NCBI RefSeq assembly: GCF_021088345.1
Contig: NZ_CP088156.1
Coordinates: 992,001 to 1,056,000 of the forward strand
Origin: Bradyrhizobium ontarionense
GTDB taxonomy: Bacteria > Pseudomonadota > Alphaproteobacteria > Rhizobiales > Xanthobacteraceae
DNA length: 64,000 nt
Direction of reading: 5' to 3'
Both the position numbers and the translations under genes were made by a program. Below the pieces are notes generated by a model, which worked only from the letters and a program-made list of their open reading frames with translations, was not told the DNA's origin and made no database searches. Shown here piece by piece: positions 6,183-11,284 of this stretch. Position 1 is the stretch's first letter. Each line of letters opens with the position of its first letter.

Positions 6183-6749
6183 TCAGTCCTTGGCGCGCTC
6201 GCAATAGGAGCCGTCCTCGGTCATGACGACGATGCGGGTGCCGACGGTGATGTGCGCCGGCACCCCGGTGCGGACACCGTTGGAGAGCACGGCGGGCTTG
6301 TAGGAGGACGACGCGGTCTGACCCTTGGTGACCGGCTCGGTTTCCATCACCTCGAGCGTGACGCGCTGCGGCAGCGTGATCGACACCGGCACCACGTCGT
6401 GCATCGACAGCTTGACGGTCATGTTCTCCTGCAGATAGGCCGCCTGCGAGCCGACGACGTCCTTCGGAACCTGGACCTGATCGTAGCTCTCCGGGTTCAT
6501 GAAGTGGAAGCCGTCGGCATCTTCGTAGAGAAAGGTGAAGTTGCGTTCTTCGATCGTCGCCTTCTCGACCTGGTCGGTGGTCTTGTAGCGCTCGGAGATC
6601 TTCACACCATCGCTGATTCGGCGCATTTCGATCTGGCTGACCGGCGTGCCCTTGCCCGGATGGATGTTCTCGGCGGTCACGACGACATAGAGCTTTCCAT
6701 CTTGCTCAATGACGTTACCCTTGCGAATAGAGCTGGCGATGACTTTCAA
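6183..6749 (-). CDS. efp: Elongation factor P
   Basis: This is a full-length 188-residue EF-P with the three domains in order. It resolves ribosomes stalled at polyproline by entering near the E site. The lysine to be modified is K33 in HPGKGTP. The start is TTG at 6749: the frame upstream is open but not EF-P-like, AGGA stands 7 bp before the TTG, and the mature N-terminus [11 protein letters not shown] follows directly. The modification enzymes epmA and epmB are divergent on the other side of a 150-bp gap, which says this EF-P is beta-lysylated. Confidence 0.96.
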
Positions 6750-6899
6750 AGCTGTTTTCCTGACACTGAAAAGGGGGCGCCGGACTGAGCCGGGGCGCCG
6801 CGCGACGCGGAATGCGGTTTCGGGCGGCAACATACTGATTTTGTCCGGGGTTGCCAGTCTTTTGGCCAGTCTTTTGCGGCCCGCACGGGCGATTCCCTG

Positions 6900-7952
6900 A
6901 TGTCCCGCGAGCCTGCGCCTTCGCCCTGGTGGTCGCCGCAGCGGCACGCCGATGTCAGGCCGTTCCTGCTCGCGCGGGCCGCCATCACCCGCGCGCTGCG
7001 GGCCTGGTTCGACGAGCAGGGCTTCACCGAGGTCGAGACCGGCATCCTGCAGGTGTCGCCGGGCAATGAGACCCATCTGCACGCGCCGGCCACCGAGCTG
7101 ACCGGCGCGGACGGGGCCCGAGCCAGGCGGTATCTGAGAACCTCGCCGGAATTCGCCTGCAAGAAGCTGCTGGCCGCCGGGGAGCGTCGCATCTTCGAGT
7201 TTGCCCGTGTGTTCCGCGACCGCGAGCGCGGCGACCTGCATCTGCCGGAATTCACCATGCTGGAGTGGTACCGGGCAGACGCGCCCTATGACGCCATCAT
7301 GGCGGACACGATCGTCATCATCGCCCACGCCGCCCAGGCCACCGGGATCCGGCAGTTCGCCTTCCGTGGCCGGACCGCTGACCCGTTCGCCGAGCCCGAG
7401 CTGCTGACGGTTGCGGATGCGTTCGCCCGATACGCCGGCATCGACCTGCTGGCGACCATCCGCGACGGCGCGGGCGACCGCGACGCGCTGGCGGCGGGGG
7501 TTCAGGGCAAGATCCGGATCAGCGACGATGACACCTGGTCGGACCTGTTCAGCAAGGTGCTGGTCGAGCATGTCGAGCCGCGGCTCGGGCAGGGACGTTT
7601 GACGGTGCTGTACGAATACCCCACGCCGGAAGCCGCGCTGGCGCGGGTGAAGGCCGGCGAGCCCCGCGTGGCCGAGCGGTTCGAGGTCTATGCCTGCGGC
7701 GTCGAGCTTGCCAACGGTTTTGGCGAGCTCACCGACGCCGCCGAGCAGCGCCGCCGCTTCGAGGACGAGATGACGGAGAAGGAGCGGCGCTATGGCGAGC
7801 GCTATCCGCTCGACGAGGATTTCCTCGCCGCTGTGGCTGAGATGCCGCAGGCGAGCGGCGTCGCGCTCGGCTTCGACCGGCTGGTGATGCTGGCAGCCGG
7901 CGCTGTTCGAATCGACCAGGTGGTGTGGACGCCGCCGGCAGGTGAGCGATGA
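6900..7952 (+). CDS. epmA: EF-P--lysine lysyltransferase EpmA (PoxA/GenX)
   Basis: The 350-residue protein is the catalytic core of a class II lysyl-tRNA synthetase without the anticodon-binding domain. It has motif 2 ([20 protein letters not shown]), a typical active-site E-F-T-M-L-E-W-Y, and motif 3 ([10 protein letters not shown]). EpmA activates beta-lysine and attaches it to the EF-P lysine. It overlaps the start of epmB by four bases (ATGA at 7949-7952), so the two are translationally coupled, and it is divergent from efp. Confidence 0.93.
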
Positions 7953-9031
7953 ACAGAATCGAACGTCCTGCGACTCTGCGGAGCGCCGCGGATCTCGTCG
8001 CGAACCCGGCCGAGCAGCCGGTGTTGGAGCGTGTGGCGCAGCGCTATGCGGTCGCAGTGACCACGCATCTGGCCGACCTGATCGATACCAACGATCCCGA
8101 TGATCCAATCGCGCGCCAGTTCGTGCCGAGCCCCCACGAGCTGAACGCAGGTCCCGGCGAGCGCGGCGATCCGATCGGTGACGATACGCATGCGCCGGTC
8201 CCGGGCATCGTGCACCGCTACCCGGATCGCGTGCTGCTCAAGCTCGTTCATGTCTGCGCGGTGTATTGCCGCTTCTGCTTCCGCCGCGAGATGGTCGGAC
8301 CCGGCAAGGACAACGCGCTGTCGGACGAGGCCTATCGCGGGGCGATCGACTACATCCGCGGCCGAGCCGAGATCTGGGAGGTCATCCTCACCGGCGGCGA
8401 TCCCCTGATGCTGTCGCCGCGCCGGCTGAAGGAGATCATGGCCGATCTCGCCGCGATCGATCACGTCAAGATCATCCGAATCCACACGCGACTGCCGGTC
8501 GCCGATCCCCAGCGCATCACCCCCGCGCTGGTCGATGCGCTCAGGGTGCAGGGCGCGGCGACCTGGGTCGCGCTGCACGCCAATCATCCGCGCGAGCTGA
8601 GCACGGAGGTACGCGCCGCCTGCGCGCGGCTGGTCGACGCCGGAATTCCGCTCGTGAGCCAGTCCGTGCTGCTGCGCGGGGTCAATGACGATGCAGCGAC
8701 ATTGGAGGCCCTGATGCGCGCCTTCGTCGAGACCCGTATCAAGCCGTATTACCTGCACCACGGCGACCTCGCGCCGGGCACGGCGCATCTGCGCACGACC
8801 TTGGCGCACGGGCAGGAGCTGATTCGGGCGTTGCGTGGCCGAGTCTCCGGCCTGTGCCAGCCGGACTACGTGCTCGACATTCCCGGCGGCTATGGCAAGG
8901 CGCCGGCGGGGCCGCAATACATCAGTGCCGAGGATTCTGTTGAGCAGGATCATGCGGCGGGTGCGCAAACGCGCTATCGTGTGATTGACTATTGCGGCGA
9001 GGCGCACCTCTATCCGCCCGCTGGCGAATGA
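7949..9031 (+). CDS. epmB: EF-P beta-lysylation protein EpmB (lysine 2,3-aminomutase family)
   Basis: This is a 360-residue radical-SAM enzyme of the KamA family. The iron-sulfur cysteines are C103, C107 and C110 in CAVYCRFC. It also has the GGDP motif (LTGGDPLML) and the PLP region common to aminomutases. EpmB isomerises L-lysine to beta-lysine for EpmA. The length is near that of the enterobacterial enzyme and much shorter than catabolic KamA. The overlap with epmA and the neighbouring efp settle the assignment over catabolic lysine aminomutase. Confidence 0.93.
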
Positions 9032-9379: not shown

Positions 9380-10465
9380 TTACGCCGAGCGTTCGTGCAA
9401 CTTGTCGCAGCCCGTGGCCCGCCGGGCAGCGACCGCGTCGGCGAGCTGCTCCAGCACCTCGACCGTCGTGTCCCAGCCGATACAACCGTCGGTGATGCTC
9501 TGGCCGTAGGTCAGCGGCACGCCCGGCCGCACGTCCTGCCGTCCGGCGACGAGATGGCTCTCGACCATCACGCCCATGATGCGCTGCTCGCCGTCGGCCA
9601 GCTGGCGCGCGACGTCGGCGGCGACGAGAGGTTGGTTCTCCGGCTTCTTGCTCGAATTGGCATGGCTGGTATCGATCATCAGCCGCGCCGGCAGGCCGGA
9701 GGCGACCAGCTCGACTGCAGCCTGCTCGACATGGGCGGCATCGTAGTTGGGGCCGCTGCCGCCGCGCAGGATGATGTGGCAATCCTCATTGCCGGTGGTG
9801 GCCGCAATGCCGGAGCGCCCGCCCTTGGTCACCGCCATGAAGTGATGCGGATGGGCGGCCGATTTGACCGCGTCGGTGGCGATGCGGATGTTGCCGTCGG
9901 TGCCGTTCTTGAAGCCGACCGGGCAGGACAGGCCGGAGGCGAGCTCGCGATGGATCTGGCTCTCGGTCGTGCGCGCGCCGATGGCGGCCCAGGCGACCAG
10001 GTCCGCGATGTATTGCGGCGTCGTCATGTCCAGGAATTCGGTTGCGGCCGGCAGGCCGAGATTGTTGACGGCGGACAGCACGTTGCGGGCGAGCCGCAGG
10101 CCTTTGTTGATGTCGAAGGAGTTGTCGAGATCCGGATCGTTGATCAGGCCTTTCCAGCCGACGGTCGTCCGCGGCTTCTCGAAATAGACCCGCATCACGA
10201 CCTCGAGCCTGTCGGCAAGGCGCTCGCGCAGGGCCGCGAGGCGCGCGGCATAGTCGACTGCGGCGTCGGGATCATGGATCGAGCAGGGGCCGACGATCAC
10301 CAGCAGCCGGTCATCGGTGCCGGTGAGGATGGCGTGGATCGCGTTGCGCGCCGCCATCACGACACGCGTGGCGGTGAGGGTGCGCGGAATCTCGCCCATC
10401 ACCTCCGCAGGCGTGCTCAATTCCTTGATTTCCTTGATGCGAAGATCGTCTGTCGTACTCAGCAC
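9380..10465 (-). CDS. 3-deoxy-7-phosphoheptulonate synthase (DAHP synthase, class I/AroG type)
   Basis: The 361-residue enzyme catalyses the first step of the shikimate pathway from PEP and erythrose 4-phosphate. Type I signatures are present: IVGPCSIHDP, RVYFEKPRTTVGWKG, GFKNGTDG, the HANSSKK motif and the metal-binding end G-V-M-V-E-S-H. I choose GTG 10465 (MLSTTDDLRIKEI) because AGGAG lies 6 bp upstream; the longer open frame would run back through a terminator hairpin. Expression is probably controlled by the attenuator just upstream. Which of the AroF/G/H isozymes it matches for feedback inhibition cannot be read here. Confidence 0.93.
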   Translation of the reverse strand: MLSTTDDLRIKEIKELSTPAEVMGEIPRTLTATRVVMAARNAIHAILTGTDDRLLVIVGPCSIHDPDAAVDYAARLAALRERLADRLEVVMRVYFEKPRTTVGWKGLINDPDLDNSFDINKGLRLARNVLSAVNNLGLPAATEFLDMTTPQYIADLVAWAAIGARTTESQIHRELASGLSCPVGFKNGTDGNIRIATDAVKSAAHPHHFMAVTKGGRSGIAATTGNEDCHIILRGGSGPNYDAAHVEQAAVELVASGLPARLMIDTSHANSSKKPENQPLVAADVARQLADGEQRIMGVMVESHLVAGRQDVRPGVPLTYGQSITDGCIGWDTTVEVLEQLADAVAARRATGCDKLHERSA

Positions 10466-10504
10466 GGCGGGCTCCTGCGTTGCGTTGTGGGCACCTGCCG
10501 GCCA

Positions 10505-10532
10505 TAAAAAAAGCCGCCAGGATCTGGCGGCT
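10505..10532 (-). terminator. Attenuator terminator in the DAHP synthase leader
   Basis: Read on the minus strand, AGCCGCCAG-ATC-CTGGCGGCT is followed by an uninterrupted T-run. This makes a strong intrinsic terminator 40 bp upstream of the structural gene. Its 5' arm GCCGCCAG is also complementary to CTGGCGGC at 10579-10586 in the leader ORF, which would form an antiterminator. Upstream sequence GCCGCCACCAG (10618-10628) can pair with the same 10579-10586 segment, giving a classical 1:2 / 2:3 / 3:4 arrangement. Confidence 0.85.
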
Positions 10533-10556
10533 GTTCGGATATCTTGCTGCAATTTG

Positions 10557-10637
10557 TCAGATTGAGCGCGATCCTCCCGCCGCCAGCGAGCTGTCGTAGC
10601 TAAAGTACCAATAGAAGCTGGTGGCGGCGTTGATCAT
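10557..10637 (-). CDS. Aromatic amino acid leader peptide for DAHP synthase attenuation
   Basis: A 26-codon ORF starting ATG at 10637 and ending TGA at 10557 encodes M-I-N-A-A-T-S-F-Y-W-Y-F-S-Y-D and a Ser/Gly/Arg tail. Six of seven successive codons (F Y W Y F S Y) are aromatic, the hallmark of a ribosome-stalling leader sensing Phe, Tyr and Trp together. Stalling there would mask pairing region 1 and free region 2 (10579-10586) to form the antiterminator; full translation would cover region 2 and allow the terminator at 10505-10532. No Shine-Dalgarno is present and the predicted transcription start coincides with the A of ATG, so the leader may be translated from a leaderless message. Confidence 0.88.
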   Translation of the reverse strand: MINAATSFYWYFSYDSSLAAGGSRSI

Positions 10638-10643
10638 GGCTGC

Positions 10644-10672
10644 TCTATAGCCGGCTCACGCCGGCTTGTCAT
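10644..10672 (-). promoter_or_regulatory. Promoter of the DAHP synthase leader transcript
   Basis: On the minus strand ATGACA (10667-10672) and TATAGA (10644-10649) are separated by exactly 17 bp, close to the RpoD consensus. Counting seven bases from the end of the -10 places the +1 on the A of the leader ATG (10637). Confidence 0.65.
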
Positions 10673-10696
10673 CTCGAAAATCGCAACCCCTTCGGG

Positions 10697-11284
10697 TCAG
10701 CCGTTCCGTGCCGCGAGCGCCATGCCGATCATCGACAGTCCGCCGAACAGGAGATTGATGCCGACCAGGAGGCCGATCGCCCAGAGTGCCGTGCCGGGCA
10801 GGCCGGAGATGATGATGCCGGCGATGACGATGTCGACGACGCCTGAGGCCGCGAGCCACGACCAGCGCCCGGACAATTCACGCCGATGCTCCAGCGCGTA
10901 CATGATGGTGGCCACGCCCTCGGCCAGGAAATAGATGCCGATGACGACTGTGAGCGTCACGGTGCCCTGCACCGGCTGTGCGATCAGGATGATGCCGGCG
11001 ACGATCGCGAGCGCGGCCGATAGCAGCGACCACCAGAAGCCAGGCATCCCGCGCGCCCAGAAGGTCAGCGCAAGCCCCGCGATGCCCGAGATCAGGAACA
11101 TCCAGCCGAGGAAGATCGTCACGGCAAGGCTGGCCGCCCAGGGCAGTATCATCGCGGCCAGCCCGAGAACGGCGAGCAGGATGCCTTCGATCAGGAAGGC
11201 CTTCCAATGCGCGCGGACCGCCGCGCTCATCGCGGACCTCATGCGCTCGAGCTCGGGGGGAATCGTATCCTGGGGAAGGGTCAT
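10697..11284 (-). CDS. HdeD family membrane protein
   Basis: This 195-residue protein has six short hydrophobic segments arranged as in the HdeD/DUF308 acid-resistance family, with the family-type phrases G-W-M-F-L-I-S-G and PGTALWAIGLLVGINLLFGG. ATG 11284 (MTLPQDTIPP) is chosen because GGGAG lies upstream and the longer frame has no ribosome site. In enterobacteria HdeD contributes to acid resistance at high cell density; in rhizobia its role is unknown. Confidence 0.85.
   Translation of the reverse strand: MTLPQDTIPPELERMRSAMSAAVRAHWKAFLIEGILLAVLGLAAMILPWAASLAVTIFLGWMFLISGIAGLALTFWARGMPGFWWSLLSAALAIVAGIILIAQPVQGTVTLTVVIGIYFLAEGVATIMYALEHRRELSGRWSWLAASGVVDIVIAGIIISGLPGTALWAIGLLVGINLLFGGLSMIGMALAARNG

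Follow-up and report, generated by a model that had tools for sequence, protein, structure and literature searches.

The window analysed here, a stretch of 64,000 nucleotides of the Bradyrhizobium ontarionense genome, carries on its minus strand a gene for a class I DAHP synthase, aroG, and upstream of it a short open reading frame (ORF) with promoter-like boxes before it and an intrinsic terminator behind it. In reading order, the features are as follows.

10667..10672, minus strand: -35 box ATGACA, a direct reading, with a 17-nt spacer to the -10 box
10644..10649, minus strand: -10 box TATAGA, also a direct reading, with the leader ATG 6 nt downstream
10557..10637, minus strand: leader ORF MINAATSFYWYFSYDSSLAAGGSRSI, 26 codons and a stop, the A of its ATG being the predicted +1
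10617..10629, minus strand: segment 1 CGCCGCCACCAGC, partner of segment 2 (protector hairpin)
10596..10616, minus strand: control codons FYWYFSY, codons 8-14 of the leader ORF, six of the seven aromatic
10578..10587, minus strand: segment 2 GCTGGCGGCG (core CTGGCGGC, 10579-10586), within the ORF, partner of segment 1 or segment 3
10537..10574, minus strand: antiterminator internal hairpin, within which the leader stop codon lies, from fold and covariation
10524..10532, minus strand: segment 3 AGCCGCCAG, 5′ arm of the terminator and antiterminator partner
10512..10520, minus strand: segment 4 CTGGCGGCT, 3′ arm of the terminator
10506..10512, minus strand: terminator T-run, which begins with the final base of segment 4
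9380..10465, minus strand: aroG, class I DAHP synthase, with a GTG start preceded by AGGAG at 10472-10476

The aroG product scores 528.7 bits against TIGR00034 (cut-off 173.2) and 560.4 bits against the narrower AroG model NF006723, slightly below the cut-off of 568, and its GTG lies 91 nt downstream of the leader stop. The upstream neighbour, likewise on the minus strand, is hdeD-like (67.4 bits, below the cut-off of its model) and ends at 10697, with the -35 box 24 bp further on. On the other side, positions 6186-9028 hold an EF-P gene (minus strand), EpmA/GenX (plus strand) and a lysine-2,3-aminomutase-like gene (plus strand), which together look like an ordinary EF-P modification cluster. 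The RpoD-like promoter, the 26-codon FYWYFSY ORF and the terminator with its T-run, which the original prediction had placed before a DAHP synthase gene, are all present in the sequence; an ORF that is short and rich in aromatic codons thus stands immediately 5′ of a biosynthetic gene, with an intrinsic terminator between the two. The terminator reads AGCCGCCAG-ATC-CTGGCGGCT-TTTTTT (10532-10506), a nine-pair hairpin, and it is the one terminator-like site in 10300-10900, where 0.2 would be expected. The leader as a whole folds at -51 kcal/mol (z -4.4), and none of 200 shuffles was equally stable. The same prediction had counted three complementary segments: the pairing stands, but there are four segments, since 10512-10520 is segment 4 and segment 3 (10524-10532) had been passed over.

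A generic promoter scan of the leader region did not flag ATGACA-17-TATAGA, because it demands a T at position 6 of the -10 box and TATAGA has none; the case for this putative promoter is one of conservation among relatives, and not of the generic scan. A subset of 113 alphaproteobacterial loci was used to assess spacing, 56 from the genus and 57 others, in which one genome occurs twice (L155 and L211) and several rows are identical, leaving 96 distinct leaders. In 108 of them the leader ATG follows, at a distance of 29-32 nt, a -35 box whose last four bases are GACA (30 nt in 61, 29 in 35, 31 in 9 and 32 in 3), and the geometry is absent in five (L077, L137, L159, L199 and L222). The search for the box had been confined to 26-34 nt, so that these 108 loci are pre-selected; within them, 105 leader ATGs have GACA at 29-31 nt on the upstream side, as do 2 of the 441 other ATGs of these regions. 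At 16 of 20 further loci checked, namely Bordetella (L046) and 15 named as or grouping with Xanthomonadales, an extended -10 element lies 7-9 nt before the start codon, and it is absent at the remaining four (L077, L097, L130 and L137); for Burkholderia and Oxalobacteraceae a TATA box about 25-40 nt upstream was read by eye and is uncounted. The window genome's own trpE leader MSTPVRPARLWWRTL (L225, minus strand, from base 955 on) has a similar leaderless promoter spacing, and the available excerpt of a study of B. japonicum gives 320 start sites located 0-10 nt before start codons (PMC4842269). From the distance between promoter and ATG, the aroG leader is predicted to be leaderless.

Conservation was examined in 60 genomes of the same genus, inferred to be Bradyrhizobium, 56 of which encode a class I AroG. 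With a threshold of at least four aromatic codons in eight, the ORF together with a downstream terminator was found at all 56 genus loci, on none of the 56 antisense strands and in none of 280 shuffles, while the ORF alone was found at 56/56 loci, on 2/56 antisense strands and in 10/280 shuffles. Raising the threshold for the combined feature to at least five aromatic codons leaves 54/56 loci (antisense 0/56, shuffles 1/280), and at least six leaves 39/56, with none in either control. The absence of conserved aromatic codons in close relatives had been named beforehand as evidence that would count against the prediction; Phe, Tyr and Trp codons occur in all 56 genus leaders. A covariance model (R1) was built from 45 alphaproteobacterial leaders, of which 18 come from these same 56 genomes, and next to aroG it scores 80-144 bits in all 56. 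Under stricter filters, the best match in the genus beyond these 56 strong ones reaches 30.7 bits among the matches listed; the weaker matches mainly cover the terminator half, and those in G039, G054 and G019 are weak and full-length, again among the matches listed. The four genomes in which class I AroG was not found at an E-value of 1e-60 (G015, G032, G048 and G053) have no strong leader, with R1 at 30.7 bits or less among the matches listed, and they may depend on a class II DAHP synthase. Judged from these comparisons, the putative leader is not due to chance.

Related genomes had also been proposed as the place to look for the leader ORF upstream of DAHP synthase genes, and it was found there, at 56/56 genus loci and in other proteobacteria. 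With at least four aromatic codons, ORF and terminator occur together at 8/8 loci of the family outside the genus; in the order outside the genus the ORF occurs at 25/25 and is followed by a terminator at 22; and in the class the count is 4/5, the exception (L220) starting 160 bases from the contig end, with the terminator's end alone visible. More distantly, the ORF was found at 63 of 79 loci from named genomes, with a terminator at 44 (antisense 13 and 0; shuffles 49 and 11 of 395), and at 22 of 37 loci in a phylum sample, with a terminator at 14 (antisense 8 and 1; shuffles 22 and 1 of 185); these fractions are not phylum-wide rates, because the loci are mostly high-identity, best-of-list picks. 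Specifically, the named set consists of the top 80 among at least 592 relatives, less L075 with too little upstream sequence; in the phylum 225 genomes gave a match, of which 37 were taken, one gene from each and chiefly those of high identity. Leaders are present in Mesorhizobium, Devosia, Methylosinus, Xanthomonas, Dyella, Rhodanobacter, Burkholderia, Massilia and Bordetella, and the groups with a leader before aroG include Xanthomonadales and Oxalobacteraceae.

In total, 163 AroG loci had sufficient sequence, and 142 of these carry the leader label; the 21 without it include four Enterobacterales, two Vibrionaceae, three Chitinibacteraceae and two Zoogloeaceae; the ORF at the Citrobacter locus (L108) is at chance level, with 4/8 codons aromatic and without a matching terminator. 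Class I AroG is itself patchy in Alphaproteobacteria, occurring in 15/149 sampled genomes of the family (seven of them from the own genus), 30/249 of the order and 6/240 of the class. In a tree built quickly from 94 AroG proteins, in which many branches are open and L109 and L111 are long branches that meet, the label requires seven changes (at least three of them forced) against 19.2 in shuffles. The leader label is clustered on the AroG tree and does not form a single clade. From these sequences, the predicted leader is widespread among the proteobacterial loci examined. As side observations, an Anaerolineae metagenome-assembled genome labelled as lying outside Proteobacteria (L081) has an aromatic-rich short ORF SRYFSFFSWYGYF 5′ of a class I aroG, which may be a case of transfer or a binning error, and for plasmid records, the 12 of 469 that were listed come from E. 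coli, Salinivibrio, Aeromonas and Vibrio.

This distribution bears on a simpler account of the locus, namely that the terminator belongs to the hdeD-like gene, which lies on the same strand and ends only 24 bp before the -35 box, with the aromatic ORF incidental and aroG constitutive or regulated by a protein. Such an account is very unlikely, since the leader is kept where the upstream sequence differs (Mesorhizobium, Devosia, Xanthomonas and Burkholderia), R1 has no strong match, among those listed, in the four genus genomes lacking aroG, and neither the genus shuffles nor the antisense strands yield the ORF and terminator together at four or more aromatic codons.

The pairing of the segments was followed in an alignment of 45 leaders, in which the terminator cells are 99.2% paired, with G-C replaced by A-U in five sequences. 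Two terminator pairs have changed on both sides, a number reached by 22 of 500 shuffles, and six cells have both sides changed, which none of the 500 reached. Control of aroG at translation, or Rho-dependent termination in the leader, in place of attenuation by an intrinsic terminator, would agree with the 91 nt between the leader stop and the aroG start, but it is highly improbable in view of a 9-pair hairpin with a T-run that is correctly oriented, shows compensatory change and leaves the AGGAG at 10472-10476 uncovered.

For the alternative helix, the cells of segments 2 and 3 are 93.9% paired in the same alignment, against at most 66.5% for slid controls, and their covariation does not exceed that of shuffles (392 of 500 as high), because the helix hardly varies. 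The internal hairpin is 85.9% paired and covaries: both partners have changed in 7 of its 12 pairs, which 4 of 500 shuffles equal, and in 32 cells, which none of the 500 equals. Its structure was taken from the window's own sequence, which gives it an advantage over slid versions. Across clades, this inner hairpin forms in 45/45 leaders against 564/900 with shuffled cores, which is suggestive at most, and a consensus fold on a cross-clade sequence alignment gave just three pairs. In the minimum-energy fold the terminator's 5′ arm pairs with the ORF in 166 of 169 leaders (a set of 171 less L070 and L144) against 326 of 845 shuffled ones, a high background of 39%. Under a strict, gapless Watson-Crick test the mean run between segments 2 and 3 is 7.06 against 4.42 in shuffles, and only 104 of the 171 leaders have a run matched in length by at most 1 of 50 shuffles.

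Folds with a stalled ribosome, for which a footprint of 12 nt was assumed, point the same way. When the ribosome sits on Phe8 to Phe12 and segment 4 is not yet made, the exposed RNA forms eight pairs between segments 2 and 3; on Tyr14, the last aromatic codon, part of segment 2 is covered and five such pairs form; and the RNA downstream of the leader stop codon folds into the terminator alone. These computations predict an antiterminator that takes the terminator's 5′ arm as its partner, so that the two structures exclude each other. As a separate observation, the related leaders L218 and L219 carry CTGGCAG, partnered by an altered terminator arm, CTGCCAG.

Because segment 2 lies inside the ORF, conservation of the peptide tail can result from RNA pairing. 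The two can be told apart among relatives: across the 169 leaders the segment 2 motif GGC[GA]G is in frame 2 in 153, frame 1 in 8 and frame 0 in 3, and is missing in 5. In L218 and L219 both the aromatic run and the RNA are shared, with the peptide tail read in different frames, and L041, L042 and L045 have SRWQP where most leaders have LA. Thus the RNA, rather than the peptide tail, is the conserved entity. It has to be weighed against this that the tail LAAGGSRSI is well kept inside the genus and that Sinorhizobium offers a precedent, in the excerpt available (PMC7298713), for a peptide that is itself the product, be it a conserved small protein or a trans-acting one comparable to the rhizobial peTrpL, with attenuation secondary. 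This reading has very little probability here, as segment 2 RNA occurs in all three frames, L218 and L219 hold the RNA while shifting the peptide frame, and SRWQP replaces the usual residues at the three loci named above; a conserved function of the tail is disfavoured because the C-terminal half shifts frame among relatives while the RNA is kept.

The aromatic codons themselves vary in kind. It had been proposed that all three aromatic amino acids are sensed at once, which fits the genus leaders with their Phe, Tyr and Trp codons, but does not extend to every leader: Trp codons occur in 143 of the 169 leaders, and 26 have Phe and Tyr only (139 and 25, respectively, among the 164 leaders with segment 2). 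Codon choice is skewed for Phe, which in the genus is written TTT in 105 of 114 cases (92%) in leaders against 6 of 250 (2.4%) in aroG genes, and in the 169 leaders in 359 of 427 against 76 of 901 in aroG genes. Tyr codons in the genus lack such a bias (TAT fraction 0.415 in leaders, 0.43 in aroG), and Phe-Ser is written TTTAGC in 109 of 113 cases. Possible reasons for the TTT preference are slow wobble reading or an AU-rich loop.

Attenuation at DAHP synthase genes has been described before, as far as the available excerpts of the sources go. In Corynebacterium glutamicum, a putative leader peptide (Phe-Tyr-Phe) and an attenuator transcript precede the DAHP synthase gene aroF (PMC4046766), an arrangement like the present one, although this is an actinobacterium, Trp is unmentioned in the excerpt, and the likeness is one of description and not of sequence comparison. 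Similarly, Acholeplasma uORFC-13-1 before aroF is a uORF with one or more Phe codons, possible promoter boxes and an adjacent terminator (PMC8632094), again alike by description; it differs in being given for Acholeplasma and environmental sequences only, in having a ribosome-binding site, and in its at least one Phe codon, with Tyr and Trp unmentioned in that excerpt. According to the same source, E. coli aroF had been hypothesised to be under attenuation, and for Shewanella aroF an upstream regulatory RNA is given as a prediction (excerpt of PMC2659441). The rhizobial trpL/rnTrpL, whose transcript starts at the leader ATG and which combines terminator attenuation with reported trans functions (excerpt of PMC7298713), would share with the aroG leader the start at the leader ATG and the terminator attenuation, both of them predicted here; it differs in its Trp codons, its target trpE(G), its 14 residues in Sinorhizobium and the trans functions reported for it. 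The aroG leader is not itself a trpL/rnTrpL, as it has Phe, Tyr and Trp codons and precedes aroG, not trpE.

The enterobacterial-type pheA and trp leaders share the mechanism class, and their Rfam models were tried and rejected, with Phe_leader (RF01859) at 20.4 bits against a gathering threshold of 55 and Trp_leader (RF00513) at 16 bits against 41. At permissive thresholds, neither the window's leader region nor the loci of 14 relatives gave an Rfam match above gathering, the best leader match at the latter being Phe_leader at 28 of 55 bits (L106). Pfam and NCBIfam gave no match to six leader peptides, and no aromatic leader was found in the 700 bases scanned before the window genome's class II DAHP synthase gene (L001). 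No description of this aroG leader was found in the open-access literature outside supplements, nor did a term search of the available excerpts of PMC2965389, PMC1262725 and PMC5343134 return an AroG leader of this kind. Leader attenuators at DAHP synthase are already in print, and none of Rfam, Pfam and NCBIfam has a model for this proteobacterial aroG leader.

The ribosome-mediated attenuation through a Phe/Tyr/Trp leader put forward in the original prediction is strongly supported by the conserved leader, the terminator, the alternative pairing and the gene context, and the element is very probably a cis-acting, ribosome-mediated transcription attenuator of class I aroG, with a start, a stalling step and a readthrough response that we infer from the sequence. 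RNA polymerase would begin at or beside the A of the leader ATG and produce a leaderless transcript. With ample charged Phe-, Tyr- and Trp-tRNA, the ribosome would pass FYWYFSY and segment 2 and reach the stop codon; by covering segment 2 it would block it, whereupon segment 3 would pair with segment 4 to give the terminator, and transcription would end with the release of an RNA of about 132 nt. Should any one of these amino acids be scarce, the ribosome would stall at the aromatic run and cover segment 1, leaving segment 2 free to capture segment 3, aided by the internal hairpin that spans the stop codon, with readthrough into aroG as the expected outcome. If translation does not occur, segments 1 and 2 would form their hairpin and the terminator would follow.

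A broader proposal is that one ancestral RNA element moved with class I aroG through the alpha-, beta- and gammaproteobacteria and that the released leaderless transcript of about 130 nt acts as a trans-acting RNA. This is unlikely, if less so than the alternatives to attenuation discussed above; were it true, the letter-level selection seen in the frames of segment 2, in TTTAGC and in TTT would reflect more than attenuation.

The shikimate pathway starts with DAHP synthase, and a conserved leader in which Phe, Tyr and Trp codons are read together would account for the way in which many proteobacteria could set this first step through translation supply and not through a repressor. The leader family would merit its own Rfam family and small-ORF annotation, and would extend leaderless leader ORFs past trp. 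Its members may serve as natural single-gene test cases for the way several amino acid signals are combined by mixed control codons.
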